From assembly GCA_030609135.1 (NCBI GenBank), contig JAUWCU010000006.1, positions 1-44,135 on the forward strand: DNA of 44,135 nucleotides, in the 5' to 3' direction. The translations under genes and the position numbers were made by a program. The notes below the pieces were generated by a model. The model made no database searches. It was not told where the DNA came from and worked only from the letters and a program-made list of their open reading frames with translations. Shown in pieces: positions 4,163 through 32,286 of the stretch. This DNA is from Candidatus Stahliibacteriota bacterium. Lineage in GTDB: Bacteria > Hydrothermota > Tepidihabitantia > SM23-42. The number at the start of each line of letters is the position of its first letter. Positions within the stretch are counted from its first letter, which is position 1.

Positions 4163-5113
4163 CTAATATTCTTTCAATTGCTGCCAGATTTGTTTAAGTA
4201 CCGCCGTTGTATTATTGTCTACATGCATGGTTAGAGGTACACCGGCGACTATTGATTCAATGACTGATTCATCGTATGGTATTTGCCCGAGGATCGGCGT
4301 TTCAGTATTGTGACACAGATCCGAAATTTTTTTAGTGTTGTTCATGTTAATATCGTACTTATTTATTACACAGGCTGCCTTGATACCAAGGCTATTAGCA
4401 AGTTTTAATACCCGTGTCATGTCATGGATCCCTGAGAGAGTTGGTTCAGTAACAATTAATGCAATATCAACGCCCGTGAGTGATGCAATAACTGGACACC
4501 CAATACCGGGTGGTCCGTCAATTATTACATATTCCAGATTGTTTTTTTGCGCGATTGCCTGAGCCTCTTTTCTAACGGTGGTTACGAGCATCCCAGAGTT
4601 GTCTTCAGCAATACCTAATTTAGCATGGACCATGGTACCGAATTGCGTTTCTGAAATAAACCATTGTCCTGCTTCATGTTTGGTCATGAATATGGCACTT
4701 ACTGGACAAACATGTGTGCAGACTGCGCAGCCTTCACATGAAATAGTATCAATAAAAAAGTGGTAAGTAGGAAGTGGGAAGTCAGAAGTGGGAGATTGTA
4801 ACTTTTTGGGTTTAAGCTCTTTATATTCACTTTTACCTTCTACCTTTTCACTTTTAACTTTCAAAACTGCACCGTATCTGCAGGCTTTAACGCACTCGCC
4901 ACAGCTCGTGCATTTCTCCTGATCAATAACTGCTTTTGGTAATCCAGTGAAGATCCGGGTTTGTCTTATTTCGGGGTGGAGCAAGAGGTGGAGGTCAGCT
5001 GCATCAACATCACAGTCTGCAATGACACTTTTATTGGCGAGGACTGCTAAACTTGCGGCGACAACGGTTTTTCCAGTACCACCTTTTCCACTAATCACCA
5101 AGATTTGCTTCAC
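4163..5113 (-). CDS. MinD-family ATPase with internal 2x[4Fe-4S] ferredoxin domain, copy 1
   Basis: A 316-residue SIMIBI-class ATPase with a deviant Walker A motif (SGKGGTGKT, residues 8-16), a ferredoxin insert carrying CTSCGECVKAC (68-78) and CEGCAVCTHVC (126-136), and the switch motif DGPPGIGCP. This architecture is the archaeal/anaerobe nucleotide-binding protein family annotated as (4Fe-4S) MinD-like and linked to metallocluster or cofactor maturation; its exact role is unsettled. The two ferredoxin motifs are pushed apart by a lysine-rich stretch at residues 85-120 that is encoded by two arrays of 7-bp repeats (4758-4792 and 4830-4864), an in-frame insertion. The start ATG overlaps the stop of the paralogue upstream (5110-5113), so the pair is translationally coupled and may act as a heterodimer. 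Confidence 0.88.
   Translation of the reverse strand: MKQILVISGKGGTGKTVVAASLAVLANKSVIADCDVDAADLHLLLHPEIRQTRIFTGLPKAVIDQEKCTSCGECVKACRYGAVLKVKSEKVEGKSEYKELKPKKLQSPTSDFPLPTYHFFIDTISCEGCAVCTHVCPVSAIFMTKHEAGQWFISETQFGTMVHAKLGIAEDNSGMLVTTVRKEAQAIAQKNNLEYVIIDGPPGIGCPVIASLTGVDIALIVTEPTLSGIHDMTRVLKLANSLGIKAACVINKYDINMNNTKKISDLCHNTETPILGQIPYDESVIESIVAGVPLTMHVDNNTTAVLKQIWQQLKEY
4758..4864. repeat. Two heptamer arrays inside a coding sequence
   Basis: Five consecutive 7-bp units of the form AAGTNNN (AAGTGGT, AAGTAGG, AAGTGGG, AAGTCAG, AAGTGGG) fill 4758-4792. A complementary-style array of CTTNNNN heptamers (CTTTTAC, CTTCTAC, CTTTTCA, CTTTTAA, CTTTCAA) fills 4830-4864. Both are in frame and encode the extra Lys/Ser-rich segment of the ATPase. 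They resemble the short-period word-like repeats found between genes in this window. Confidence 0.85.
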
Positions 5114-6072
5114 GCATTGCTCACAATTTGTTCATGAAGTTTTGAGAATGCAATTTTGTATTGTGGGTTGACATGGAGCAGGGGGGTTCCTTTGGAATAG
5201 GCAACGGCAATCTCTCTATCCAAAGGGATGCGCATCAGTATAGGGATGTGTTCTTTTCTGCAATAATCTTCTGTTTTCTTATCGCCGACGCCGTCACGGT
5301 TGATTACGACCCCAAATCGCAGATTCAATACCCGGAGCGTATCAACAGCAAGTATCAAGTCATTTAAGCCAAAAGGTGTTGGTTCAGTTACCAAAACAGT
5401 ATAATCAGAGCCTTTAACTGCCTCGATCACTGGACACGAAGTTCCAGGAGGAACATCTATAATAGTGAATTGGTCAAATAATAACTGGTTATTTGTCTGT
5501 TTATTTATTTCTTCCTGTTTACCAGTTATTTTACATCTTTGTGCTTCTTCTTCAGTTTCTCCATTTCTCCGTTTCACCGTTTCACCGAAAGTTTTTTGTT
5601 TTATTTCTCTGATAAGTGGCGGTGCCATTGGTTCTCCAATGTTCAATTTGCCGTGTATAAATTCAATTGTACCTGCATTTCCTATTTCTAAAACGCCGAT
5701 TTCCTTACTTTTTTCTGATAATGCATTTTCTGGACAAAGGAGTGTACAACCGCCACAACCATGGCACAACTCTTCAAAGATAAGGACCTGTTTTGTATTT
5801 TTAACAACGGCTATTGCGTTGTACACACAGATATCAGCACATTTGCTACAGTATGTGCATTTTTTTGTATCAACTACTGGGATCTGAATACCGACTGATA
5901 TGGTTTTGTTTATTTTCGGCTTCAAGAAAATCGCTGCATTGGGTTCTTCCACATCGCAATCGAGAAATTGAATTGGAGGATGGTTATCTTCGTTAGATAA
6001 CCAAAGCGCATAACTGGTCGCAATTATTGTCTTACCAGTGCCGCCTTTGCCACTCGCAAATGAAATTATCAT
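5110..6072 (-). CDS. MinD-family ATPase with internal 2x[4Fe-4S] ferredoxin domain, copy 2
   Basis: A 320-residue paralogue of the next gene. It has ASGKGGTGKT at the N-terminus, CTYCSKCADIC (72-82) and CHGCGGCTLLC (103-113) as two four-cysteine cluster motifs, and DVPPGTSCP near 206-214. Between the conserved PPLIREIKQ (151-159) and the switch region it carries a charged stretch (about 160-198) encoded partly by four 8-bp repeats. The corresponding part of copy 1 is shorter. It overlaps the MBL gene upstream by 4 bp (6069-6072) and copy 1 downstream by 4 bp, so the three genes form a tightly coupled unit. The expected role is ATP-dependent handling of Fe-S or other metal clusters; the client is unknown. 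Confidence 0.87.
   Translation of the reverse strand: MIISFASGKGGTGKTIIATSYALWLSNEDNHPPIQFLDCDVEEPNAAIFLKPKINKTISVGIQIPVVDTKKCTYCSKCADICVYNAIAVVKNTKQVLIFEELCHGCGGCTLLCPENALSEKSKEIGVLEIGNAGTIEFIHGKLNIGEPMAPPLIREIKQKTFGETVKRRNGETEEEAQRCKITGKQEEINKQTNNQLLFDQFTIIDVPPGTSCPVIEAVKGSDYTVLVTEPTPFGLNDLILAVDTLRVLNLRFGVVINRDGVGDKKTEDYCRKEHIPILMRIPLDREIAVAYSKGTPLLHVNPQYKIAFSKLHEQIVSNA
5555..5586. repeat. Octamer array inside a coding sequence
   Basis: Four adjacent 8-bp units, GTTTCTCC, ATTTCTCC, GTTTCACC and GTTTCACC, lie in frame in the second MinD-like gene and encode part of an extra hydrophilic stretch. Less regular runs (CTTCTTCTTC and similar) continue on its left side. Confidence 0.8.
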
Positions 6073-6776
6073 TCTATCTGAATGATTTTACCAACCCCAA
6101 TATTCAGGAAATTGTCTTTGTACTCATTGGCGAACAGCTCTCGGCAACGGTCGCCACTACAATGACATGGTCCGGCATTTAGAACTTTCAGTCGTCTGAA
6201 TTGGGCAATGATGTTTTTCAAATCAGAGTCTGTATAACCCCCTAAATGAAAGCCGCCAAATACCATATTGATTTCTTGATTAAAGCGCTTTTGTACGCTT
6301 TCGATAATGTTGACAATCCCGGGATGTGCACAGCCAGTAATAATTACCAGCCCTTTCTGAGTTTCGATAATGAGCGATTGTTCTTTTATTGTTGTACCAA
6401 GTGTGCCACTAGTGTGAATGTGAGAACATAGCTTTTCAGCAGTATGGCTTTCAATGAGATGTGCACCTTTTGATCGGGCTATGTCCTTAATGCCATTTGA
6501 GAATGATGGTAACATGTAGACATCGACATTGGATTTTTTTTCTAAGAAGCTTTGCAGACCCCCAGTATGATCCCAGTGGTCGTGTGATATCAGCAGTTTA
6601 TCAATCTTATTGGGATCAATTCCAAGGTATTTCATATTATCAAGCAGTATTTTTCCGTCACCACCAGTATCAAATAGAAGCGTATTTTCAAATCCTTCAA
6701 TAAGACATGAAAATCCCCATTCGGTTTTTAGCTCTGGATTATGAGGATAATTATCAAAAATGATTGTAATCTTCAT
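6069..6776 (-). CDS. Metallo-beta-lactamase fold hydrolase
   Basis: A 235-residue single-domain MBL-fold protein with the metal-binding HDHWDHTGG motif near residues 65-73, a second-site GCAHPGI near 149-155 and a late FGGFHLGG segment. It belongs to the group often annotated as similar to the beta-ribofuranosylaminobenzene 5'-phosphate synthase-related MBL proteins, which commonly lies beside MinD-type ATPases in anaerobes. The substrate is not deducible. The start ATG is at 6774-6776 with GGAG six bases upstream. That ribosome site abuts the inner end of the 6787-6929 repeat element. The 3' end overlaps the downstream ATPase gene by 4 bp. Confidence 0.85.
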   Translation of the reverse strand: MKITIIFDNYPHNPELKTEWGFSCLIEGFENTLLFDTGGDGKILLDNMKYLGIDPNKIDKLLISHDHWDHTGGLQSFLEKKSNVDVYMLPSFSNGIKDIARSKGAHLIESHTAEKLCSHIHTSGTLGTTIKEQSLIIETQKGLVIITGCAHPGIVNIIESVQKRFNQEINMVFGGFHLGGYTDSDLKNIIAQFRRLKVLNAGPCHCSGDRCRELFANEYKDNFLNIGVGKIIQIE

Positions 6777-7031: not shown

Positions 7032-7277
7032 TTAACCTCTTTTGCAGATGCCGTCATCTGAGCATGGTGGGGTATCACATCGTTCGGTTCTGCCGCAACA
7101 TGTAGTTCCCTTGGGATGCGAGTTTCCCATTATAACTGCACCGGGTGCTGAAATTTGTTTAGTTAATTTTTTTGAACCACAATGTTCACATACCGGGGTT
7201 TCTTTATGATCTTTGCTCTTTAGTAATACTTCAGTTATTTTATTGCAATCTTTACATTTATATTCGTAAATGGGCAT
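7032..7277 (-). CDS. FmdB-type zinc ribbon protein with extra C-terminal cysteines
   Basis: An 81-residue protein beginning MPIYEYKCKDCNK, the hallmark of FmdB/CxxC_CxxC_SSSS regulatory-type zinc ribbons, with a second knuckle CEHCGSKK at 33-40. The C-terminal quarter adds CC, C and two more cysteines (GTTCCGRTERCD, PPCSDDGICKRG), which is more cysteine than a single zinc site needs and could bind a further metal or cluster. The family has been linked to formamidase and methyltransferase gene regulation, but most members have no proven role. It follows a second FmdB gene 8 bp upstream. Confidence 0.82.
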   Translation of the reverse strand: MPIYEYKCKDCNKITEVLLKSKDHKETPVCEHCGSKKLTKQISAPGAVIMGNSHPKGTTCCGRTERCDTPPCSDDGICKRG

Positions 7278-7630: not shown

Positions 7631-7849
7631 TTATTGTCTTGTCATTTTTGCGCCGCATTTAGGACAAGTCATTTGATTACAAGGGGTACCCGCTTGATGG
7701 GGCATAGTTGCACCACATGAAGGGCAAACACAGCTGCCGCCTGGCCCTAATGCGCGACCACCCATTCTGCCACGACCTTTTCCTCGTCCTAAACCTCTGC
7801 CTGTTCCTGGACCCTGTCCGCTAGGACCTGTTCCATCACCTCTTGGCAT
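7631..7849 (-). CDS. Gly/Arg-rich small protein with zinc-ribbon cysteines (DUF5320-like N-terminus)
   Basis: A 72-residue protein starting MPRGDGTGPSGQGPGTGRG, the opening typical of DUF5320-family proteins that accompany NifX/NifB-type genes in anaerobes. The second half carries CVCPSCG (41-47), a lone Cys near 58, and CPKCG (62-66), so a metal-binding domain replaces the coiled coil seen in related family members. The ATG follows a good AAGGAGG site. It lies between two copies of a word-like repeat block. Confidence 0.75.
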   Translation of the reverse strand: MPRGDGTGPSGQGPGTGRGLGRGKGRGRMGGRALGPGGSCVCPSCGATMPHQAGTPCNQMTCPKCGAKMTRQ

Positions 7850-8037: not shown

Positions 8038-8397
8038 CTATTCATCATGATGTTCGCATTTACCCAGTGCTCGTTCACAGAGCGATGCACCGCCTTCAAG
8101 TGTACCATTGAGAATTCTTTCTATGACGCCGTTAATATCACCAGTTATTCCAAGTACCTTTTCGATATTATGTTGATCAAAAAGGCCTTGGGCTTTCATG
8201 CCCATACCACCGGCGATTATACACTCAATTCCTTTTTCAGCAAAATATTGTGGAAGAAAACCAGGTGAGTGGCCGGGATTTTCTATGACCTCTTTGTTTT
8301 TAAGCTTGCCATTTTCAAGATCGAGGATTGTAAAATGTGGGCATCGACCAAAATGCGCGGAGACCTGACCTTGGTTAGTTGAAATAACTATTTTCAT
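8038..8397 (-). CDS. NifX/NifB-family dinitrogenase cofactor-type protein
   Basis: A 119-residue single-domain protein of the NifX/NifY/VnfX/NifB-C family (ribonuclease H-like fold). It begins MKIVISTNQGQVSAHFGRCPHF and has the conserved IIAGGMGMKA near residues 60-70. In nitrogen fixers these domains carry NifB-co or FeMo-co; in non-fixing anaerobes the function is unknown and may be Fe-S cargo binding. Here a histidine/cysteine-rich tail (CERALGKCEHHDE) could add a metal site. No nitrogenase gene is in the window. It is 9 bp downstream of Mrp, matching a carrier plus ATPase pairing. Confidence 0.88.
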   Translation of the reverse strand: MKIVISTNQGQVSAHFGRCPHFTILDLENGKLKNKEVIENPGHSPGFLPQYFAEKGIECIIAGGMGMKAQGLFDQHNIEKVLGITGDINGVIERILNGTLEGGASLCERALGKCEHHDE

Positions 8398-8406
8398 TTG
8401 TACTCC

Positions 8407-9219
8407 TTATTTGCTATTGTGCAGAATCTTGTCGACAATTGCAGCAAATGCCTTGGATGCATCAGATTCAGGTTGGTGAATTATGAAGGGTTTGCCGTCA
8501 TCACCCAACTCGACTATTTTGGGGTCTATTGGAATTCTTCCCAAAAAAGGTACGCCAAGTTCTTGTGCTGTTTTTTCTCCGCCACCTTTTTTGAAAAGAT
8601 TTATTTGTCCACCACAGTGGGGGCATACCATGCCGCTCATGTTCTCTATGATTCCGTGTATTTTCAGATTTAGCTTTTTTGCGAAATTCACTGCTTTTCT
8701 GGAGTCAAGAAGAGAAACCTCTTGTGGTGTTGTTACGATTATTGCACCAGTTGCAGGTATCAATTGGGCAATTGAAAGTGGTTCATCTCCAGTCCCTGGC
8801 GGTGAATCGATAACCAACCAGTCAAGATTACCCCAGATTACATCGCCAAGGAATTGCTGGATAACTTTCATTTTTAAAGGTCCGCGCCAAATAACTGGAG
8901 TTGCGGTGTCTTGTAAGAGAAAAGCCATTGATACCAGCGCGAGGTTTTTCGTAATTGCAACTGGTAGTATGCGGTTATTACCGGCAGATTCTAATCGTTT
9001 TTCTTCAACGCCGAGCATCTTTGCTAAGTTTGGACCATGTATGTCAACATCCAATAGACCGATCTTAAGTTGTTTTTCACTGAAAGCAAAAGCAAGGTTT
9101 GCGGCAACAGTGCTCTTTCCGACCCCACCTTTGCCTGAAAAAACGAGTAATCTATTCTTGATGTTGTTCAATGTTTCTGCAATTTTCTTATCATCTTCAG
9201 TCTTTTTTTCCTGTATCAT
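8407..9219 (-). CDS. mrp: Mrp/NBP35-family Fe-S cluster carrier ATPase
   Basis: A 270-residue P-loop ATPase with a deviant Walker A motif ([11 protein letters not shown] near 32-42), the family signature DSPPGTGD around residue 140, and the C-terminal CPHCGG near 209-214, whose CxxC can bridge a [4Fe-4S] cluster across the dimer. It lacks the N-terminal MIP18 domain present in many bacterial Mrp proteins; a free-standing MIP18-like protein is at 19.8 kb. Its position between two NifX-type genes suggests ATP-dependent cluster loading onto those carriers, which is inference. Confidence 0.9.
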
Positions 9220-9244: not shown

Positions 9245-9838
9245 TTATTTTTTGTTTTCAAGCTCTTTTATTCTTTTGCTTATGGTTTCGAGTTGCTGTT
9301 TCAGATAATTTGCCTGCTGCTTAAGCATTTGCAATTCCTGCTCTGGGTTTGGCTGGGGAAAACCAGGTTGTGACATTGGTGGTTGCTGCATTGGTTCTGA
9401 TCCATAGTTCATGCTGCCGCGTCCCATTCCGCCACCCATGCCCATTCCAAAACCAGGACCTTGTGAGGTACCATATCCCATTCCATAATGCGACCCTACA
9501 TTTGGTCCAGTTATTGGATTGAGCTGACCTGATTTATAACGCTCTATTGCCTCACTTACTGTTCCTACAACACCGGTGATGACCTTAGTCCCGGCTGCCT
9601 GTAGGGTTTGAAACGCATTTGGACCGCAGCTTCCAGTGAGCACCACTTCAACCCCTTTATTTGCAACCAATTGGGCAGATTGAATCCCTGCACCGCCCAT
9701 AGCATTAACATTAGGGTTTTCAATTGCCTCAAACTGCATTGTATCGGTGTCAACAATCAAAAAATATGGTGTGCGACCAAATCTCGGATCTACATTGGAA
9801 TTTAAATCAGTTCCGGCAGATGTAATGGCTATTTTCAT
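9245..9838 (-). CDS. NifX/NifB-type domain with Gly/Met-rich linker and C-terminal coiled coil
   Basis: Residues 1 to about 115 form a NifX-type domain (MKIAITSAGTDLNSNVDPRFGR start; GAGIQSAQLVANKG and VLTGSCGPNA inside). It is followed by a flexible segment rich in Gly, Met, Gln and Pro (about 118-160) and a heptad-patterned helix at about 165-197 (LQMLKQQANYLKQQLETI). That helix matches in style the C-terminal helix of the next protein upstream, so the two may hetero-oligomerise. The methionine-rich linker might bind a soft metal. This is an extended version of the usual 110-120 residue single-domain protein. Confidence 0.85.
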   Translation of the reverse strand: MKIAITSAGTDLNSNVDPRFGRTPYFLIVDTDTMQFEAIENPNVNAMGGAGIQSAQLVANKGVEVVLTGSCGPNAFQTLQAAGTKVITGVVGTVSEAIERYKSGQLNPITGPNVGSHYGMGYGTSQGPGFGMGMGGGMGRGSMNYGSEPMQQPPMSQPGFPQPNPEQELQMLKQQANYLKQQLETISKRIKELENKK

Positions 9839-9847
9839 GTTATCTCC

Positions 9848-10174
9848 TTATGTTTTATTTGTTTTACTCGATTCTATTTCCTTAATTCTTTTTCTTATGC
9901 CCTCAAGTTCATCCTCTAATATTTCTGTCTGTCCTTTGAGCATGTCCAGTTCATTCACCGGGTATGCATTGGTATCATAATAGGGATTGTCTTGTGGATA
10001 ACCAACAGGATAAGGGGATGCATAATTAGGATAATAGGGGGTAGTTGATGCATACTGATTCGCATTAGGCGTAGCCCACCACCATCTTGGCAACCAGGGG
10101 AAATTCCTGCAATAAGGATAGGGATTACCCCGACCCCAGCCACGTCCAAAACCTCTTCCAGAGCCAAATGGCAT
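9848..10174 (-). CDS. DUF5320-like Gly/Tyr/Pro-rich protein with C-terminal coiled coil
   Basis: A 108-residue protein beginning MPFGSGRGFGRGWGRGNPY, then a Trp/Tyr/Pro/Asn-rich middle without recognisable fold, and a C-terminal helix of about 35 residues (ELDMLKGQTEILEDELEG) with clear heptads. This N-terminal GFGRG pattern with a terminal coiled coil is typical of DUF5320 proteins, whose function is not known. It lies between another family member and the NifX-type protein that has a similar terminal helix, suggesting a shared complex. Confidence 0.72.
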   Translation of the reverse strand: MPFGSGRGFGRGWGRGNPYPYCRNFPWLPRWWWATPNANQYASTTPYYPNYASPYPVGYPQDNPYYDTNAYPVNELDMLKGQTEILEDELEGIRKRIKEIESSKTNKT

Positions 10175-10196: not shown

Positions 10197-10604
10197 TCAC
10201 CATCCCCAACCACGGAACCGACGACCTCCACCACGGCCACGCCCGAATCCTCTTCCAAACCCATATGGCGGGGCATAGGGGATCCCGGCATAGGGCGTGG
10301 GATACGGTTGTCCATAATTTCCTGAGCCTTGATATGCATAACCATAACCCTGATATGCGTTAGGGTAACCCTGATACGCATTAGGATAACCCTGATACGC
10401 ATTAGGATAACCTTGATACGCATTAGGATAACCTTGATACGCATTAGGATAACCTTGATACGCATTAGGATAAAAACCTCTACCTCGGCCAAATCCAGGA
10501 ATTGGGTTAGCAAATCCTGGAGTCTGATTACCTGCGCAGTATCCTGCTGCGCGTCCAGTCATTGGTCCAAGACCCATTGGACCTGTTCTATCTCCACCTG
10601 GCAT
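10197..10604 (-). CDS. DUF5320-family protein with tandem heptapeptide repeats
   Basis: A 135-residue protein with the family start MPGGDRTGPMGLGPMTGRAA and a single GYCAG cysteine at 23. Residues 45-86 are six identical copies of YPNAYQG followed by a degenerate YGYAYQG (87-93). The remainder is Gly/Arg/Phe-rich (GFGRGFGRGRGGG). There is no signal peptide. It is the first gene after the sigma-54 promoter and has a strong AAAGGAGG ribosome site, preceded by a hairpin. Its role is unknown; the Tyr/Gln/Asn-rich composition is reminiscent of low-complexity, phase-separating segments, which is only a suggestion. Confidence 0.75.
   Translation of the reverse strand: MPGGDRTGPMGLGPMTGRAAGYCAGNQTPGFANPIPGFGRGRGFYPNAYQGYPNAYQGYPNAYQGYPNAYQGYPNAYQGYPNAYQGYGYAYQGSGNYGQPYPTPYAGIPYAPPYGFGRGFGRGRGGGRRFRGWGW
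10326..10472. repeat. 21-bp tandem repeat encoding YPNAYQG
   Basis: Seven 21-bp units lie in frame in the DUF5320-like gene, six nearly identical at DNA level (unit CCCTGATACGCATTAGGATAA with C/T change at the third base) and one diverged. The near identity indicates recent expansion or ongoing gene conversion. Confidence 0.92.
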
Positions 10605-10618
10605 AATAGCCTCCTTTC

Positions 10619-10639
10619 AATTCAGCCAAGGGCTGAATT
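10619..10639 (-). promoter_or_regulatory. Hairpin directly before the ribosome binding site
   Basis: AATTCAGCC and GGCTGAATT form a 9-bp stem with a 3-nt loop, ending next to the GAAAGGAGG ribosome site of the DUF5320 gene. Similar hairpins stand before dfx, rubrerythrin, the 20514 gene and, imperfectly, the first fur gene. Confidence 0.65.
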
Positions 10640-10762
10640 AAGCTGATTCCCGCGGATAAAAACGCGGATTCACACTGAATACTCTTTAACTGTGTATCTA
10701 CTCTCATCTTCTATTGCTACCTATGAACTGATGAGCGTTCTTCTTTTCTCATTATATTTATA

Positions 10763-10778
10763 AGCAATATCCGTGCCA
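10763..10778 (-). promoter_or_regulatory. Sigma-54 (RpoN) -24/-12 promoter
   Basis: The minus strand reads TGGCACGGATATTGCT, an exact match to the consensus TGGCACG-N4-TTGCW. The expected start of transcription is near 10751, about 150 nt before the first DUF5320 gene. I found no other equally good match in the intergenic regions I checked. Confidence 0.85.
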
Positions 10779-10906
10779 GGTAGAGTGCATAGGGCAAAGG
10801 GTATAAAGCATGGGTAATTTCCATGAAAAATAATGAAATTCACATGTTTATTAAAGTATATAGTTAACATCTATTATACTGAGGTTGCTGTAGGCTTGTC
10901 ACATTA

Positions 10907-10995
10907 TTGAAACATAAAAGATTTTACTTGATAAAGTGCTGTAATATCGCAATATATTATGTTTCAAAAAAGTAACATATGTCTTTTATGAAACA
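10907..10995. promoter_or_regulatory. Candidate enhancer sites for a sigma-54 activator
   Basis: TTGAAACATAA (10907-10917) and TTATGTTTCAA (10957-10967) are perfect inverted copies. A related TGTCTTTTATGAAACA at 10980-10995 fits TGT-N10-ACA, the form of NifA-type upstream activator sites. They lie about 130-230 bp upstream of the -24/-12 promoter, the normal distance for enhancer binding. Confidence 0.55.
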
Positions 10996-11035: not shown

Positions 11036-11095
11036 TGTAGTTACCCAATTTATTGGATTTTGTTGTCAAAATGCCTGATAAATCAGGCAACTACA
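11036..11095. repeat. Palindromic repeat of the TGTAGTT...AACTACA family, copy 1
   Basis: The element starts TGTAGTTACCCAATTTATTG and ends GATAAATCAGGCAACTACA, with internal hairpins (CCAATTTATTGG, GCCTGATAAATCAGGC). Related copies are at 31977-32042 and 32059-32107. Confidence 0.75.
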
Positions 11096-11229: not shown

Positions 11230-11604
11230 TTAACTTTTCCACAAACCATGTACATTACAATATTCACGGGCCGTTATATTTTGTGCGTCTATCTTGAACA
11301 TAGCTTCAGGTTTTCCGCCAGGTTTCAAGAACTCACGATATGCCTGTCCATCAGCTATTAGCTCAATCCACTCGATATAATGTTTTTCTTCCATAGGATG
11401 GAGTATACTACCAACTGTTACCTTGATACCATCTGTAGTTTTTTCTATTATCGGGACATGTTTTTCTTTTGCTGCATCAACTGTGTTCTCTTCCATAAGT
11501 TTCATTGGTTGATTACAGCAAATAAGTTCTCCAACACCTTCATGCAGGACCTCTACTATATTTCCACAAACTTCGCATTTATAGATTTGCAATCTTTTAG
11601 TCAT
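11230..11604 (-). CDS. dfx: Desulfoferrodoxin (two-iron superoxide reductase)
   Basis: The 124-residue protein reduces superoxide to hydrogen peroxide without releasing oxygen. The N-terminal rubredoxin-like centre (CEVCGN and the adjacent CC of LICCNQP) and the catalytic iron ligands ([24 protein letters not shown], and YCNVHGLW at the end) are all present, so it is the two-centre type. I place the start at the internal ATG at 11602-11604 because AAGGAG lies seven bases upstream and a hairpin (11618-11634) precedes it; a longer frame to 11646 would read through that hairpin. It is the last gene of the oxygen-defence block. Confidence 0.95.
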
Positions 11605-11617
11605 TTTATATCTCCTT

Positions 11618-11634
11618 TTCAACCTGAGGTTGAA
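11618..11634 (-). promoter_or_regulatory. Hairpin directly before the dfx ribosome binding site
   Basis: TTCAACC-TGA-GGTTGAA is a perfect 7-bp stem that ends right before AAGGAG. It matches in position the hairpins before rubrerythrin and the DUF5320 gene. Confidence 0.6.
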
Positions 11635-11727
11635 TCCATGGTCCACAACAGCAGTAGCAAGCTACTGCACTCCAAAACCCAATCCGCCTCTAGTATGACT
11701 ATCATTGTCTAATCTGTATACCCGCAA

Positions 11728-12201
11728 TTATTCTATTGTCCTTTTGATCTCTGATAATTTCACAAAGTGTCTCCGTTCTTCTTCTATGATACCCTCAATT
11801 ATTTTCCTCTGATTCTCAGAGACAAGATTTTTTATTTCCTGGTAATACAAGATAGAATCCAATTCTGCATTTATTGCATAATCAAGCGCAGCGCTTATAT
11901 CTTTGATATTTGCTATTTCTTCATCGAATTTTTTCTGGGTGAAGATGATATTATCTGCATAGGCACGTAGATAAGCAAAATATTCTCCTGGGAAAGTCTC
12001 AAATGGTTCATATTTTTCAATTTTTGAGACCATTTCTTTATATATTTTCTTATGCTTTATTTCTTCATCCGCGAGAAACGAGAATAATTCTTTTACCTTT
12101 GTTTCATCAAATTTTTGAACCATCTGCCGGTAAAATTTTTCGCCATTTTCTTCTATCCTTATTGCAAACTGAAATACTTCACTTGGTTCAAATAAACTCA
12201 T
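11728..12201 (-). CDS. Ferritin-like/rubrerythrin-like diiron protein without rubredoxin domain
   Basis: A 157-residue four-helix ferritin-like protein. Glutamates and histidines with the expected spacing are seen in IRIEENGEKFY (about 15-25), ADEEIKHKKIY (44-54), NAELDSILYY (about 111-120) and EEERRHFVKL (about 140-149), giving two ExxH-type motifs as in rubrerythrin. There is no C-terminal rubredoxin, unlike the gene at 14.1 kb. A peroxidase or oxygen-reduction role with FprA/rubredoxin partners is likely. It lies 11 bp downstream of FprA. Confidence 0.85.
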   Translation of the reverse strand: MSLFEPSEVFQFAIRIEENGEKFYRQMVQKFDETKVKELFSFLADEEIKHKKIYKEMVSKIEKYEPFETFPGEYFAYLRAYADNIIFTQKKFDEEIANIKDISAALDYAINAELDSILYYQEIKNLVSENQRKIIEGIIEEERRHFVKLSEIKRTIE

Positions 12202-12212
12202 TTTAACCTCCT

Positions 12213-13400
12213 TTATGGAATGATATTTATTCCTTTATGTTTAGCAAGGATTTCATCTGCCAGTTTTTCTAATAATGTAAAGTCATCTTCTTTTGGATAT
12301 CCTTTTACGATTACTGGTGAAATTAATTCTACTTTAAGATTGCCAAGCATACCTGTGATTGTATCGACCATTTTCCCACCCCAACCATAAGAGCCAATTA
12401 TCGATGCAAATTTGGTCTTTGGTCTTAAGGCATTGGCAAGGTATGTTGCGTAAACTGCGGCTGGATGTGGACCGACCAGCACAGTGGGAGAGGCAATGAC
12501 TATGGTAGCAGCGTCAACAAGAGCCTTTGCCAATTCTCCAATATCTGTTTTTGTTAAATTAAATGGTTTTACAGTTATATCTCTTTTTATTAAAGCATCC
12601 ACAAAATATCTTACCATTTTATCAGTACTGCCGTGCATTGAAACATAGGGGATAATTACTTCATTTTTTACGTTGTCAGAAATCCAATCTTTATAAGCAT
12701 CAAGAATAAATTCTGGTTTGTTATGAATGGGACCATGACTCGGTGCGATCATTTCAATCTCGAATTGTTTTAGTTTTTCCATATGTTTCTTAATGTTATT
12801 TCTAAATGGCATCATAATCTCTGCGTAATATCGTTTGGCTGCCTCATATACTCTTGCCTCATCTGTTGCATAGAGATCACTCGTTGCAAGATGTGAGCCG
12901 AAAAAATCGCAAGGAAATAAAATTTTATCTTCCCGTAGATAAGTGAGCATTGTCTCAGGCCAGTGAACCCAGGGTGCCATGATGAACTGGAGAGTTTTAT
13001 TTCCCAGGGATAAAGTGTCGGTATCATTTACTACTACAAATTTATCTTCAGGAATCAATGATAAATCCATTAGCATCCCTTTGCATTTTGCATTTGTTAC
13101 TGCCTTGGCATTTGGAAACGCTTTAAGTATTTTAGGTATAGTACCTGAGTGATCCTGCTCAGCATGGTTAGCTATAACATAATCAATATTATTTACGCCT
13201 AATTTCTTCAAATTATCAAAGAGTTCATTTTCTTTAGGTGGGTCAACCGTATCGATCAGCGCTGTTTTTTCATTACCTTTTATAAAATATGAATTATAGG
13301 TTGTGCCATCAGGCAGGGGTATGAGTTCATCGAACAGTCTTCTGTCCCAATCAATCGACCCCACAGTATACACCCCGGGTTTTATTTGGCGCACGGTCAT
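12213..13400 (-). CDS. fprA: FprA/ROO family A-type flavoprotein (diiron oxygen or NO reductase)
   Basis: A 395-residue protein with an N-terminal MBL-fold diiron domain (ANHAEQDHSGTIP, ligands His79, Glu81, Asp83, His84; later WVHWPETM, FPCDFFGSH and APSHGPIHN) and a C-terminal flavodoxin domain from about residue 255 (PYVSMHGSTDKM). It reduces O2 to water, or NO to N2O, with electrons from rubredoxin. The adjacent gene encodes a flavin-reductase/rubredoxin fusion, the natural electron donor. Start ATG has GGAG 8 bases upstream; spacing to the neighbour is 2 bp. Confidence 0.95.
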   Translation of the reverse strand: MTVRQIKPGVYTVGSIDWDRRLFDELIPLPDGTTYNSYFIKGNEKTALIDTVDPPKENELFDNLKKLGVNNIDYVIANHAEQDHSGTIPKILKAFPNAKAVTNAKCKGMLMDLSLIPEDKFVVVNDTDTLSLGNKTLQFIMAPWVHWPETMLTYLREDKILFPCDFFGSHLATSDLYATDEARVYEAAKRYYAEIMMPFRNNIKKHMEKLKQFEIEMIAPSHGPIHNKPEFILDAYKDWISDNVKNEVIIPYVSMHGSTDKMVRYFVDALIKRDITVKPFNLTKTDIGELAKALVDAATIVIASPTVLVGPHPAAVYATYLANALRPKTKFASIIGSYGWGGKMVDTITGMLGNLKVELISPVIVKGYPKEDDFTLLEKLADEILAKHKGINIIP

Positions 13401-13402
13401 TA

Positions 13403-14098
13403 TTAGATCTCCTTTTCAAACTTATCTTTTCCAACACCACAGATTGGACATACCCAGTCATTTGGTAATTCTTCAAAAGTCGTGCCGGGTTTTATACCTG
13501 AATCCGGATCACCTTTTTCCGGATTATATATATACCCACATACTGTGCATTTGTACTTTACCATTTCCGACTCCTTTTTTTGTTTATCTGGTTCTTCATT
13601 GATGTATGTTGTTGCTGTTTTCGGCGCCCTACCTCTTAATACTTTGTGATAGTATTCATAAGTTAAGGGTTCTTTATCATTGATTATTTCCGCATCCATT
13701 AATTTTCCAACAAATAATGTGTGTGTACCAGTATCCATACTGCCCGTGACTTCGCATTCTAAATATCCTATTGTATTATTCAAAACTATTGGGGCACCTG
13801 TTTTACCGATTTTATAGTTAATATCTTTGAACTTTTCAATATCCCTGCCGCATTTGAATCCGAAAAGTCCGATGAATTTCATCGTGGCTTGGGTGGATAG
13901 AATAGAAACAGTAAAGACTTTACTTTCCTGAATATATTCATGAGTAAGATTATTTTTATTAATACAGACTCCAATTGTTGGTGGTTCTGCAGTCAACTGG
14001 AATACAGTATTCGCAATCTGCCCATTAAACTTGCCATCCTTTTTAGAACTGACAATATAGAGTCCATAACTAATTTTCCAGAGTGCCTTTTTATTCAT
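13403..14098 (-). CDS. Flavin reductase-rubredoxin fusion (high-molecular-weight rubredoxin, Hrb-like)
   Basis: A 231-residue protein: residues 1 to about 155 are an FMN-binding flavin-reductase domain ([38 protein letters not shown]), then a Lys-rich linker and a rubredoxin at about 179-231 with CTVCGY and CPICGVG as iron ligands. In Moorella such a protein passes electrons from NAD(P)H to FprA. Gene order FprA/Hrb/rubrerythrin supports the same chain here. The gene begins 8 bp after the rubrerythrin stop. Confidence 0.93.
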
Positions 14099-14106
14099 CG
14101 ACGAGG

Positions 14107-14682
14107 TTACCAGTTTTCGCCTAACAATTCAAAATATGCCTTGGGATGAGCACAAGCAGGGCATTTATCTGGTGGTTCAGTGCCCTCATGAATATAACCA
14201 CAATTCCTGCAGCGCCATTTTACTACCTTATCGCGCTTGAATACCCTAACTTTTTCTATGTTTTCAGCAAGAGCGAGGTATCTTTTCTCGTGTTGTTTTT
14301 CAGCTACAGCGATTGATGTGAGGACCGACGCTATCTCGCTGAATCCTTCTTCAACAGCTATCTTAGCAAATTCAGGATACATAGTAGTATGCTCATGGTT
14401 TTCACCAGCAGCAGCTGCCTTGAGATTATCTACTGTTTTGCCAATTACTCCGGCAGGGAACGCAGCAGTAACTTCTGCTTCACCGCCCTCCAAGAATTTA
14501 AATAGTCTTTCAGCATGTTCTTTTTCATTATCTGCAGTTTCTGCAAATATTCCAGAGATCTGTTCATAACCTTCTTTTTTTGCCTTTGAGGCAAAAAAAT
14601 TATAGCGATTTCTTGCCTGTGATTCTCCTGCAAATGCAGTTAAAAGGTTTTTTTCTGTTTTTGTGCCTTTCAAGTTTTTCAT
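14107..14682 (-). CDS. Rubrerythrin
   Basis: A 191-residue rubrerythrin. The ferritin-like domain has the paired metal motifs [22 protein letters not shown], and [10 protein letters not shown], and the C-terminal rubredoxin-like domain has CRNCGY and CPACAHP (about 155-180). It acts as an NADH-dependent peroxidase through rubredoxin partners. It has the strongest ribosome site of the block (AAAGGAGG, five bases before ATG) preceded by a hairpin at 14697-14713, and is followed by the Hrb and FprA genes. Confidence 0.95.
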
Positions 14683-14696
14683 GATTACCTCCTTTA

Positions 14697-14845
14697 ATCA
14701 GCCAGAGGCTGATACACTCTTCTATGTGGGAAAGCCCTTCTGGGCTTGATATTCTTTTCTATGTGGGAAAGCCCTTCTGGGCTTGATATTCGCGGGCAGC
14801 CCGCCCCGCTTCGCAAGGCGAGGCCGGGGAAGCCCGCTCCCACTT
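14697..14845. repeat. Leader hairpin plus repeated GGGAAAGCCCTTCTGGGCTT units
   Basis: ATCAGCC-AGA-GGCTGAT (14697-14713) is a hairpin before the rubrerythrin ribosome site. Two direct copies of a unit reading TATGTGGGAAAGCCCTTCTG and on to GATATTC follow (14723-14790). A GC-rich stretch then ends in GGAAGCCCGCTCCCACTT. The same set in the same order, in opposite orientation, occurs at 20408-20495. Confidence 0.8.
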
Positions 14846-14938
14846 TTAATCACTTTGTTTTTTTTCAACGTTATAGCCAGCATTTTGTATCTGTTCTACC
14901 ACAGCTTCCTCATCAATTTCACCGTCGATTTTTACCAA
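14846..14938 (-). CDS. Small ORF resembling the C-terminal half of an HMA (heavy-metal-associated) domain
   Basis: A 30-residue frame starting at TTG (14936-14938), with AGGAG about 9 bases upstream, reads VKIDGEIDEEAVVEQIQNAG and then YNVEKKQSD. The EIDEE..V..QIQ.AGY.VE pattern is like the last strand-helix-strand of an HMA metal chaperone, but the CxxC-bearing first half is missing, so this may be a remnant. A similar 34-residue frame is at 20303-20407, also followed at once by the same repeat. It lies between Nfu and rubrerythrin. Confidence 0.45.
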   Translation of the reverse strand: MVKIDGEIDEEAVVEQIQNAGYNVEKKQSD

Positions 14939-15020
14939 TTTTTCTTTACTCCTTAATCTCCTGATTATCTGATGTGCTGATATTCTTCATCCTGATCCTC
15001 TGATAATCTGGTATCCATTA

Positions 15021-15245
15021 CTAAAATACCTGTTCCACTGCTTTTACTTCAGAAATTTTTTCTTTTAATCTTTTCTCAATAGCCATCTTAAGAGTAACGG
15101 TGCTCATTGGACAACCAGCACACGCACCGGTTAGCTTCACCTTTACAACACCATCCTCGGTAACATCAACTAATTCAACATCACCGCCATCTGTCTGCAA
15201 ACCTGGTCTAATTTCATCCAGGACTTTTTCGACCTTATCTTTCAT
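15021..15245 (-). CDS. Nfu-type (NifU C-terminal domain) Fe-S carrier
   Basis: A 74-residue stand-alone Nfu domain that holds and hands over a [4Fe-4S] cluster. It has the conserved RPGLQTDGGDVELVDV and the cluster-binding CAGCPMS (CxxC at about 42-45). The NifU-like scaffold in this window lacks this domain, so the two could be separate halves of the same system. ATG is preceded by AAGGAGG. It lies between Fur/PerR and rubrerythrin, suggesting repair of Fe-S damage in the oxygen-defence regulon. Confidence 0.93.
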   Translation of the reverse strand: MKDKVEKVLDEIRPGLQTDGGDVELVDVTEDGVVKVKLTGACAGCPMSTVTLKMAIEKRLKEKISEVKAVEQVF

Positions 15246-15563
15246 GTTTCCTCCTTAAAAATATAAAATACCTAAACCCAGCTCGTTTGCAACGGGCTTG
15301 GGTAAATGCCTAAACCCCGTTAGATGTTTACCCCGTTGGAAAATATTGGCCTTTAGGGTATGCGATGTTGAAGAATAAATAAAGCATGGTTTCCTACGGG
15401 GTGTACTATCTAAACGGGGTAAACCCCTAAAAATTTTTACTGGAGTAGAGCCTTCAGGCTCGTAAGACATAACGGGGTAAACACCCTACTCCAGATAATT
15501 AACAAATTCTCCAATTCACCGATTAACCAATTCTCCGACTTAACGGGACTAAAGCCCCTACTT
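15246..15563. repeat. 318-bp gene-free block of nested palindromic repeats
   Basis: This holds a 73-bp element at 15330-15402 with 13-bp ends ACCCCGTTGGAAA and TTTCCTACGGGGT (one mismatch). Next to it is a 55-bp unit at 15440-15494 bounded by CTGGAGTAG/CTACTCCAG with an internal GAGCCTTCAGGCTC hairpin, related to the GAGCCTAAAGGCTC hairpin in the 21.2, 34.7 and 36.1 kb elements. The right end (15497-15540) is word-like: repeated CCAATTCNCC phrases. No gene is visible. Confidence 0.75.
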
Positions 15564-16016
15564 CTATTTATCATCTGTCCTCTTATTTTTTTCGTTCTTA
15601 AGACAATCTTTACAAATACCCTTTATGTACCGGTGAAATTCATCTATTCTGTGTCCGTATATTTGTTTTCTATTGACAATAGGACATTTAATATTAATAT
15701 CAATAATTTTACCACATTTTTTGCATAGAAAATGGTGATGGGGCATAGTAACAAAATCATATCGGACCTCTGTTTCTGTAATAGTCACTTTCGATACAAG
15801 ACCCTTTTTAAGAAAGGCACTTAAGGTATTATAGACAGTCGTCATCGACATTGTTGGTATGTTTTTGGAGAGTGTTTTGTAAATCATTTCTACAGTTGGA
15901 TGGCTGTTTTCATGTTTATCGAGATATTCGAGAATCTTTAAACGCTGGTATGTTGGCTTAAGACCTTTTTCTTTAAGGGTATTTTTTAATCTTTCCATAT
16001 CTGATATTGTTTTCAC
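15564..16016 (-). CDS. Fur-family regulator, PerR-like
   Basis: A metal-dependent repressor of 150 residues: N-terminal winged helix (TYQRLKILEYLDKHENSHPT, MSMTTVYNTLSAFLKKGL) and a dimerisation/metal domain with the HHHFLCKKCGK motif and a second CxxC (ICKDCLK) near the end. I choose the GTG at 16014-16016 because GGAG stands six bases upstream; the frame can extend 4 codons further to 16028, but that would include the ribosome site. Its position at the head of Nfu, rubrerythrin, FprA and dfx suggests it is the peroxide sensor of that block. It may also be reached by read-through from nrdD, 73 bp upstream. Confidence 0.88.
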   Translation of the reverse strand: MKTISDMERLKNTLKEKGLKPTYQRLKILEYLDKHENSHPTVEMIYKTLSKNIPTMSMTTVYNTLSAFLKKGLVSKVTITETEVRYDFVTMPHHHFLCKKCGKIIDINIKCPIVNRKQIYGHRIDEFHRYIKGICKDCLKNEKNKRTDDK

Positions 16017-16089
16017 TATGAACTCCACTTAATCAGCCAAACGACTGGATTAAGGATAAAGGTTGCATACATGTATTAATAACCATAAT

Positions 16090-21351: not shown

Positions 21352-23070
21352 TCACTGGGACGCTTTACGATTTTTTATCTCATATTTCTTCATTTTTCGC
21401 CATAAGGTAATGCGGGAGATTTTTAATATTTTTGCAGTTTTTTCTCGGTCCCAATGATTTCTTTTTAATGCCTCAATGATGACTTCCTTTTCTATTTCAT
21501 CTATGGGGTTTTCTTTTGTTAATAATTTATCTATTAAAGGACTTGATTTTTGTTTAATATCCTCAGGCAGATGTCTTGTTTGGATTATCCTTCCTGTACA
21601 ATGTATAAACGCATGTTCAATTGCATGCTCAAGCTGTCTTATATTACCAGGCCAGGGATAATCTAAGAGCAAATCCATTGCGTCTTGAGATAATTTAGTA
21701 ATTGTTTTATTAAATTTTTTCCCAAATAGATTAAGAAAGTGTTCAATAAGAAGGGGAATATCCTCGGGTCTATCCCGCAGAGGAGGGATGGTTATTGGCA
21801 TGACATTCAATCTGTAATAGAGATCCTCCCTGAACTTCTCTTGTTCTATTGCCTGCTTGAGATCGCGGTTTGTAGCTGCGACAACACGAACATCGACTTT
21901 CACTGTCTTAATGCCACCAAGCGGTTCGAATGCGTGTTCTTCCAATACCCTGAGTAGTTTGGCTTGAATAGATAGAGGGATATTACCTATTTCATCAAGG
22001 AAGATTGTACCAGAATCAGCTAATTCAAATTTACCTGGTTTATCAATCCTGGCATCGGTAAAAGCACCTTTTTTATAGCCGAATAATTCACTTTCCAAAA
22101 GGGTTTCAGGCAGCGAGGTACAATCCACCTTTATAAAAGGTTTATCCTTTCTTGGCGAATTGTGATGGATTGCCCTTGCTACCAAGTCTTTACCAGTTCC
22201 AGTTTCACCCATTATTAAAACAGTTGACGATGTAGGGCTGATTGTTTTCAAAAGACTGTAAATCTCCTGCATCTTTTTATCTTTGCCGATCATATTTGCG
22301 AAACTATATTTCATATTCAATTCTTCGCTTACATTTTTGTAGAAAGAAAGGTCCCTAAAGGTTTCAACCCCGCCAATTATATTGTCTTGCTCATCTATTA
22401 ACAGAGCAGTGTTTACACTAATCGGCACAATTTTACCTTGGGCATTGATGATTTCAATCTCATAGTCGTAAATAGGCATTTTTGTTGCCATTGTTTTTCT
22501 CAAAGGACAATCAGTTTTGCATGTTTTGCTTCTCATTATCTCATGACATTGTTTACCAAGGACATCTTCTACTCGGTTACCAGTGATTATTTCAGCAGCA
22601 GGATTAAAGCTTGTAATGCGCCATTCATTATCAACAGTCAATACTCCATCTGCAATAGAATTGAGAACGGCAATGAGTCGGGTATTTTCCGTGTATAATT
22701 CTGCATGCAGTTTATATATCTCTTCAATGTCACGGAAATTTATAATTACGCCTACTATTTCGCCTTTAACATCTTTAAGTGATGTTGCATTTATTGAAAT
22801 AGTAATTGACTTATTTTCAACATTTCTAATTTTAGTCTTGACATTAGTAATTGATTTGCCATTTTCTAAGACCTCGTCTATAGGTGATCTATGAGCATCC
22901 AGTTCACTGTTGAATACCGCGTTGAAGTTCTTGCCGGTGACATCGATCGCAAGAAAACCGGTGATCCTTTCTGCACCTTTAGAAAAGCTTATTATTTTGA
23001 AGTTCTTATCAATTGCAATAACACCATCAGAAAATGAATCAAGAATATTTTCAATATTATTTAATAACAT
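21352..23070 (-). CDS. Sigma-54-dependent activator with two PAS domains
   Basis: A 572-residue enhancer-binding protein. PAS domains lie at about 5-118 and 130-248, the AAA+ domain at about 255-490 with Walker A GETGTGKD (288-295), the sigma-54 contact loop GAFTDA (335-340, instead of the usual GAFTGA) and Walker B GTIFLDEIG (354-362). A Fis-type helix-turn-helix (KTAKILKISRITLWRKMKKY) closes the protein. The second PAS holds three cysteines (175, 184, 188; TCKTDCPL), a pattern seen in activators from anaerobes that could bind a cluster or sense redox state. It is the only sigma-54 activator here, so it is the best candidate regulator of the 10.77 kb promoter. Confidence 0.95.
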   Translation of the reverse strand: MLLNNIENILDSFSDGVIAIDKNFKIISFSKGAERITGFLAIDVTGKNFNAVFNSELDAHRSPIDEVLENGKSITNVKTKIRNVENKSITISINATSLKDVKGEIVGVIINFRDIEEIYKLHAELYTENTRLIAVLNSIADGVLTVDNEWRITSFNPAAEIITGNRVEDVLGKQCHEIMRSKTCKTDCPLRKTMATKMPIYDYEIEIINAQGKIVPISVNTALLIDEQDNIIGGVETFRDLSFYKNVSEELNMKYSFANMIGKDKKMQEIYSLLKTISPTSSTVLIMGETGTGKDLVARAIHHNSPRKDKPFIKVDCTSLPETLLESELFGYKKGAFTDARIDKPGKFELADSGTIFLDEIGNIPLSIQAKLLRVLEEHAFEPLGGIKTVKVDVRVVAATNRDLKQAIEQEKFREDLYYRLNVMPITIPPLRDRPEDIPLLIEHFLNLFGKKFNKTITKLSQDAMDLLLDYPWPGNIRQLEHAIEHAFIHCTGRIIQTRHLPEDIKQKSSPLIDKLLTKENPIDEIEKEVIIEALKRNHWDREKTAKILKISRITLWRKMKKYEIKNRKASQ

Positions 23071-31868: not shown

Positions 31869-32286
31869 CAGAAACTTGGACACATCGTTCAACAGATATT
31901 TCGGGGAACCCTCACCCTTTCCCTCTTCCTTAAAAAGGGAGAGGGTGTATTAATTTGGTTACTTTCCTCTCTGCGCTGTAGTTGTCCAATTTATTGGACT
32001 GCCCGATAAATCGCCTGTCTGCCTCAGGCTGAGGCGACTACAATTGGAAACGTGATTTTGTAGTTGTTTGATTTATCAAACATAGCCCGATAAATCGGGC
32101 GACTACAAAAGGGAGAGGATTCACCCTGTGTAATAAAAGAATGATTTTACGCAAAAAGAAATAGAAATAACCGATCTACCTCAAATATTGTGAAACGATA
32201 TCCATAAATTGTATTACACGGGGTAAAGGTGAGGAGCTCATTTGATAAATTCAAAATCAAGGGATAAAGATGTGTCCAAGTTTCTG
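31869..32286. repeat. 418-bp inverted-repeat element between divergent promoters
   Basis: CAGAAACTTGGACACATC (31869-31886) and its exact reverse complement (32269-32286) bound the gap between fur and the EamA gene. Inside are a CCCTCACCC/AAAAGGGAGAGGG stretch, two TGTAGTTG...ACTACA palindromic units (31977-32042, 32059-32107) and one 100-bp unit (32124-32223). No ORF. Each terminus is 10 bp from a -35 box. The same terminal sequence recurs at 43640-43657. This accounts for the whole gene-free interval. Confidence 0.88.
32124..32223. repeat. Single copy of the 100-bp unit that is tandemly amplified at the right edge
   Basis: CCCTGTGTAATAA opens and GTATTACACGGGG closes the unit, in opposite orientation to the array at 43780-44135. 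Sequence similarity covers the whole unit and a little of the flank (CTCACCTTTA before it, in the array's orientation). Confidence 0.88.

Follow-up and report, generated by a model that had tools for sequence, protein, structure and literature searches.

Genes and predicted control elements of the locus

The window (the whole stretch of 44,135 nucleotides that was analysed) corresponds to contig C144 in a metagenome-assembled genome of 2.56 Mb, and the genes of interest are all located on its minus strand. From its domain content, the region from 10604 down to about 4163 is a predicted orp-type iron-sulfur/metal-cofactor operon. The features considered here are, in descending order of coordinates:

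21352-23070, minus strand: proposed cognate enhancer-binding protein of 572 aa, PAS-PAS-AAA+(GAFTDA)-Fis-type HTH
10978-10995: candidate activator dyad 1 (distal), 11/14 match to TGTTTCA-N4-TGAAACA, containing TGT-N10-ACA
10960-10977: candidate activator dyad 2, 12/14 match to the same consensus
10897-10914: candidate activator dyad 3 (promoter-proximal), 12/14 match, at the same position in six relatives
10763-10778, minus strand: putative sigma-54 promoter (-24 GG / -12 GC), TGGCACGGATATTGCT, exact TGGCAC-N5-TTGCW consensus
10605-10762, minus strand: leader (5' untranslated region), with hairpin AATTCAGCC-N3-GGCTGAATT at 10619-10639 directly before the Shine-Dalgarno sequence
10197-10604, minus strand: DUF5320 protein of 135 aa, first gene of the operon (PF17253, E=3.6e-14)
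9848-10174, minus strand: second DUF5320 protein, 108 aa (PF17253, E=3.9e-7)
9245-9838, minus strand: NifX/ORP domain with a Gly-rich DUF5320 tail, 197 aa (PF02579, E=1.7e-27, and PF17253)
8407-9219, minus strand: Mrp/NBP35-type P-loop Fe-S carrier ATPase, 270 aa (PF10609, E=1.8e-99)
8038-8397, minus strand: stand-alone NifX/ORP domain, 119 aa (PF02579; NF041136 positions 265-365)
7631-7849, minus strand: small DUF5320-like CxxC protein, 72 aa (PF17253, E=7e-4, below the curated cut-off)
7032-7277, minus strand: zinc-ribbon protein, 81 aa (PF09723)
6069-6776, minus strand: metallo-beta-lactamase-fold protein (PF00753)
5110-6072, minus strand: ferredoxin-MinD ATPase, Orp3/Orp4-like (ParA/CbiA and two 4Fe-4S motifs)
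4163-5113, minus strand: ferredoxin-MinD ATPase, Orp3/Orp4-like, last gene of the conserved cluster (CbiA and 4Fe-4S motifs)

The first gene encodes a Gly/Tyr-rich protein with tandem YQGYPNA-type repeats, the length of which varies among close relatives. The protein encoded at 9245-9838 has an orange-protein or IssA-like architecture and matched the solved structures of MTH1175 (1eo1, 2.8e-26), which has been named as an IssA homologue (PMC5524996), and of D. gigas ORP (2wfb, 2.1e-23). The Mrp protein matched the MrpORP model NF041136 over positions 1-252 with 373 bits, below the cut-off of 450 bits, and it covers the model jointly with the product of the next NifX gene (265-365). Given that MrpORP is thus present in a split form and not as a fusion, we class the genes as an orp-type cluster rather than as a strict MrpORP cluster; this assignment is based on an ORP/NifX-family protein (9245-9838) and two ferredoxin-MinD ATPases (4163-5113 and 5110-6072). 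The 72-aa CxxC protein is conserved in orthologous operons.

The sequence-only reading of this DNA had described the downstream genes as DUF5320-like, NifX-type and Mrp rather than nitrogenase genes, and the profile matches bore this out. Its label of a metallocofactor-type operon stands with regard to the iron-sulfur/metal-cofactor genes and is made more precise here as an orp-type (orange-protein/Mrp) Fe-S cluster. Regulation of the nitrogenase type was discarded as a candidate, because the operon lacks nif structural genes and its NifX-type domains are of the ORP/MTH1175 kind. Upstream of the operon and beside it (11230-16028) is an oxygen-defence block comprising desulfoferrodoxin, rubrerythrins, FprA, flavin reductase-rubredoxin and a PerR-like Fur-family gene, and a terminator-like hairpin (11072-11089) separates the operon from the desulfoferrodoxin gene.

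A putative sigma-54 promoter and its conservation

The site at 10763-10778 was the sole exact match to TGGCAC-N5-TTGCW in the whole window, compared with a mean of 0.01 expected from 100 shuffles, and the predicted transcription start lies at approximately 10752. With up to two mismatches allowed, 22 sigma-54-like sites were found in the window versus 19.5 expected. Given the lack of an excess at this looser threshold, we placed weight on the exact match and its conservation alone. Genome-wide, there were six exact matches versus one for a reversed control, and rpoN is present (Sigma54_DBD on contig C99, E=7e-48). The region thus combines what we take to mark a putative sigma-54 promoter, namely the consensus with its GG/GC spacing, rpoN in the genome, and predicted activator sites 80-250 bp upstream.

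Loci around Mrp were collected from relatives and scanned for the site, with G015 and L108 being added later. Seven relatives have the site in front of the orthologous operon; it is exact in G002, G003, G016, G015 and L108 and carries one mismatch in G013 and G011. G002 is near-identical to the window genome (G000) in the promoter region, so that these two are to be counted once, and L108 is a WOR-3 locus more distant than the family genomes. At the background rate, a site with zero or one mismatch would turn up on the correct strand of a 200-bp stretch with a probability of about 0.002. One further genome, G027, was ambiguous, with a full-length activator ortholog on a different contig and a single sigma-54-like site whose spacing is one base short. 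A chance match in AT-rich intergenic DNA would agree with the ordinary frequency of sigma-54-like sites at up to two mismatches, but the exact match, its retention in seven relatives and the conserved geometry of the dyads described below speak against it; conservation contradicts this explanation, and we leave it next to no probability. Both the exact consensus on the minus strand and its presence before orthologous operons had been put forward or proposed as checks in the sequence-only reading, as had rpoN, and all three held.

At G000:C80:3452-3467 (L006, L079) there is another sigma-54 site, TGGCACGGATCTTGCT, which differs from TGGCACGGATATTGCT in one base. It is close to another activator gene and has no dyads.

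Transcription of the sigma-70 type was weighed as an alternative origin of the mRNA, with the sigma-54 match being incidental. A sigma-70-like pair, GTGACA-18-TATAAT, is located on the operon strand at 10902-10873 with an 11/12 match and overlaps dyad 3, and hexamers with a 10/12 match overlap the sigma-54 site itself. The number of such matches, however, equals that in shuffled sequence (4 vs 3.7), and on inspection, of G002, G003 and G016, only the near-identical G002 retained GTGACA/TATAAT, while all three retain the sigma-54 site. We therefore consider sigma-70 control highly improbable. In D. vulgaris, the activator DVU2106 is reportedly a repressor of its own overlapping sigma-70 promoter.

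The leader is 93% identical at the same place in G003, compared with 78% coding identity (Mrp) between the two genomes, and is not present in G002 although G002 is nearly identical to the window genome. The hairpin adjacent to the Shine-Dalgarno sequence recurs in G016. The overall fold of the leader was not exceptional (z = -1.55), and a known RNA element was rejected as a candidate, with this unexceptional fold and no Rfam match of note.

Three dyads upstream of the promoter and a linked activator

The upstream element was first recognised from perfect 18-bp palindromes, TGTTTCA-N4-TGAAACA, in G016 and G013. In the window, three dyads of this type lie at -217, -199 and -136 from the start of the sigma-54 site, and three 18-bp dyads are present in all seven family genomes that have the site (window genome included), with spacings of 18-21 and 60-65 bp. 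Shuffle P values for three matches to the G016/G013 consensus were 0.003 for the window, 0.010 for G003, and 0.013 for both G011 and G015, and none of 3000 shuffles per genome, run for five genomes, gave the three-copy geometry. Across 384 kb of family loci, 15 dyads matched at 12/14 or better, and 12 of them fall inside these promoters; the per-genome counts are partly circular because the consensus was derived from the same family. The test on distant loci is not circular: a matrix trained on the family scored highest at a site adjoining the activator gene in five of the 11 loci (L108, L113, L114, L121 and L126), with a binomial P of about 1e-5 to 1e-4 for an expectation of 3-5%. In the Desulfobacterota MrpORP clusters, dyads were mostly unrecognised by the WOR-3 matrix, and the DNA motif is therefore not universal. 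None of the other five exact sigma-54 sites of the genome has such dyads.

The arrangement accounts for two elements that the sequence-only reading had singled out. The 11-bp inverted repeat (TTGAAACATAA at 10907-10917 and TTATGTTTCAA at 10957-10967) is real but is not one element: read in the direction of the operon, one arm is the right half-site of dyad 2 and the other the left half-site of dyad 3. We rejected it as a single operator, given that the arms lie 50 bp apart and are half-sites of two different dyads. Similarly, TGT-N10-ACA is found at 10980-10995 as described but belongs to dyad 1 and is not a separate site. Together, the repeat and TGT-N10-ACA lie 129-217 bp upstream of the promoter.

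A regulon extending beyond this operon was also considered and rejected. The dyad matched 40 places in the genome with up to two mismatches, versus 15 in the control; many of the 40 are one repeated palindrome, TGTTTGATAAATCAAACA, and none of the 15 loci checked had a convincing site in the right place. The palindrome itself occurs at 32065-32082 and on many contigs, including four times on contig C17 with a spacing of approximately 61 bp, in the manner of a dispersed or tandem repeat.

The activator encoded at 21352-23070 is the sole sigma-54 activator in the window and one of seven strong ones in the genome, and its named relatives are from Candidatus Stahlbacteria / candidate division WOR-3. 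The earlier description of a PAS domain with three closely spaced cysteines was correct, with the addition that there are two PAS domains and that the cysteines (Cys175, Cys184 and Cys188, CX8CX3C) are in the second. This motif is kept in orp-linked activators and not in more distant activators of the same alignment.

The sequence-only reading had connected this activator with the cluster by proximity, and the connection is now founded on comparison. The gene is 10.6 kb from the promoter in the window genome and on a different contig in G002 and G003, whereas in G011, G015 and L108 it ends directly before the promoter and operon; because orthologs sit directly beside both in relatives, we paired the activator with this promoter. 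In other phyla, an activator gene adjoins orp genes at L110, L113, L117 and L126. Of the 20 Desulfobacterota MrpORP loci examined, at least 12 have an adjacent activator with the same cysteine motif. Full-length orthologs were found in G001, G002, G003, G011, G013 and G015; in the 87% complete assembly of G016, which has the promoter and dyads, an intact ortholog was not found. In a phylogenetic tree, the orp-linked activators require one change (support 91), with several unlinked activators inside the group. The loop of the L108 activator is GAFTGA, and GAFTDA is therefore not universal among orp-linked activators.

Control of the promoter by one of the other strong activators, with the protein at 21352-23070 serving something else, would be compatible with the existence of seven strong activators in the genome and with the distance of this gene from the operon in the window genome. 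It is orthologs of this activator, however, and not of the others, that adjoin the operon in relatives, and the genome's remaining sigma-54 activators fall in other parts of the tree. In addition, an ortholog was found in 6 of 7 operon-bearing family genomes of the sigma-54 type and in none of the 5 in which the operon follows a Fur-family gene (Fisher P=0.015, for genomes that are related to each other and assemblies that are incomplete). We judge control by another activator to be improbable. OrpR-type sigma-54 control of the orp-type operon is indicated by the genomic linkage, the GAFTDA loop and the tree grouping. In its main points, the sequence-only reading was thus supported.

Several loci with the same PAS cysteines in their activators (L128-L133, L118 and L124) had no full orp cluster nearby, and the activators of L118 and L124 adjoin respiratory or cytochrome-like genes; this sensor type may therefore serve other targets as well. 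At two Desulfobacterota orp loci (L232 and L241), two different activators flank the divergent halves of the cluster.

Proposed mechanism, sister genera and known systems

We propose that 10763-10995 controls the orp-type operon via sigma-54 and the activator encoded at 21352-23070, which would act on the dyads and probably sense redox state through an Fe-S cluster, and we assign this reading as a whole a probability of about 0.78. In line with established sigma-54 biology, sigma-54 RNA polymerase would be held in a closed complex at 10763-10778. Activator dimers would occupy the three TGTTTCA-N4-TGAAACA dyads about 119-217 bp upstream, of which dyads 1 and 2 are approximately two helical turns apart and dyad 3 is approximately six turns further on. 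The activator would then loop to the promoter with the help of an HU/IHF-type protein, two genes for which are present in the genome, and would open the promoter by ATP hydrolysis. The signal is most likely perceived, by analogy, through an oxygen-labile Fe-S cluster on Cys175, Cys184 and Cys188 of the second PAS domain. As three cysteines provide three ligands, a [4Fe-4S] cluster would need a fourth ligand, or the cluster would be of another type. By homology with D. vulgaris OrpR, the operon may be expressed when the cell is reduced and shut down under oxidative stress. For its products we propose a role in carrying, assembling or storing Fe-S or mixed-metal clusters, which we infer from the transfer of clusters by MrpORP to proteins of the ORP complex (PMC6345978) and from IssA (PMC5524996).

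In sister genera, the operon is preceded by a different regulatory gene. In five genomes, G017 (L054), G006 (L066), G004 (L101), G021 (L102) and G010 (L105), the orthologous DUF5320-ORP-MinD cluster lies directly behind a Fur-family gene, whose product matches Pfam FUR, has Fur/PerR as its nearest NCBIfam models and has a Trp/Gly-rich N-terminus. In four of these five genomes, a Fur box with a match of at least 13/15 stands 33-49 bp ahead of the first gene; that of G017 (TGAAAATCATTTTCA) is perfect, and 384 kb of family loci contained only six boxes at this threshold, those four included. A sigma-54 site before the cluster and a full-length activator ortholog were looked for in the same five genomes, and neither was found. 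We read these observations as a probable exchange of regulators on one conserved operon between closely related genera, which is new as far as the literature searched shows.

Supply of a metal offers another reading of the signal, in which promoter, dyads and activator are as described and the PAS cysteines are either ligands of a metal ion (iron, zinc, molybdenum or copper) or paired in a disulfide. Three cysteines fit a metal site or a thiol switch equally well, the Fur-family gene and Fur boxes of the sister genera suggest iron as the variable, and in the genus of the window the activator gene is near feoA/feoB, ZIP and NicO-type metal transport genes. Against this, the homologous OrpR is said to be redox-responsive with a PAS Fe-S cluster, and oxygen-defence genes lie beside the operon. 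We regard a metal signal as unlikely and retain Fe-S redox sensing as the preferred reading; Fe-S redox sensing by OrpR was reportedly described in a 2021 Molecular Microbiology paper.

Cell division, Fe-S maturation and a Mo-Cu cofactor have been proposed as roles of the orange-protein cluster, and the first proposal, made in Desulfovibrio, is said to have been that of a cell-division system. The exchange of regulators, with a redox-type sigma-54 activator in some genera and Fur in others, provides independent evidence for a place of the cluster in iron/redox homeostasis. Tentatively, and with the balance of our judgement somewhat against it, a sigma-54 activator that senses redox state through a PAS Fe-S cluster and an iron repressor of the Fur type might be interchangeable controllers of the conserved orp/DUF5320 operon. 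If so, the orange-protein system would be an iron-sulfur buffer instead of a cell-division system, possibly with IssA-like storage, and would be tuned by redox state or by iron depending on lineage. The conserved three-dyad enhancer, for its part, allows a precise prediction of the activator's target in uncultured phyla, and the dyad offers a defined motif to which OrpR-like activators of several phyla may bind.

For Desulfovibrio, control of orp clusters by sigma-54 and a cognate activator is established (PMC6345978, PMC3897727). As far as the literature searched shows, OrpR-type control in WOR-3 and the three-dyad architecture are new; a survey of sigma-54 regulons (PMC12316311) makes no mention of orange protein, Mrp, dinitrogenase or WOR-3.

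The D. vulgaris cluster includes Orp3 and Orp4, each bearing two ferredoxin motifs, together with the orange protein Orp8 and Orp9/MrpORP (PMC6345978); it is driven by sigma-54, by DVU2106 bound to palindromes at about -131 and -88, and by IHF (PMC3897727). The orp operons of D. vulgaris Hildenborough (DVU2103-2105 / DVU2107-2109) share with the operon in the window the ferredoxin-MinD ATPases, a NifX/ORP protein, and Mrp with a NifX domain, as well as sigma-54 promoters, upstream activator palindromes and a cognate one-component activator (PMC6345978, PMC3897727). The operon in the window differs in being a single unidirectional unit, whereas that of D. vulgaris is two divergent ones, and in having MrpORP split into two genes, several additional DUF5320 proteins, a zinc ribbon and an MBL-fold protein, an activator gene 10.6 kb away, and three dyads at one promoter. 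OrpR (DVU2106) resembles the activator in being a one-component regulator with an N-terminal sensor, a GAFTDA loop (listed for DVU2106 in PMC4641369) and an orp operon as its target (PMC3897727); the likeness is drawn from descriptions of DVU2106, CX8CX3C having been seen in orp-linked Desulfobacterota activators, and the protein in the window differs in its two PAS domains. IssA, the thioferrate storage protein of P. furiosus (PMC5524996), has in common with the product of 9245-9838 a NifX-type domain followed by a Gly-rich C-terminal tail; compared by sequence alone, the tail is cationic in IssA, whereas in the window it is DUF5320-like and ends in a coiled-coil-like stretch. A further counterpart, the DUF5320-ORP-MinD cluster of the sister genera, is orthologous to that of the window and differs in its upstream Fur-family gene, in the Fur box of four of its five members and in lacking the sigma-54 site.
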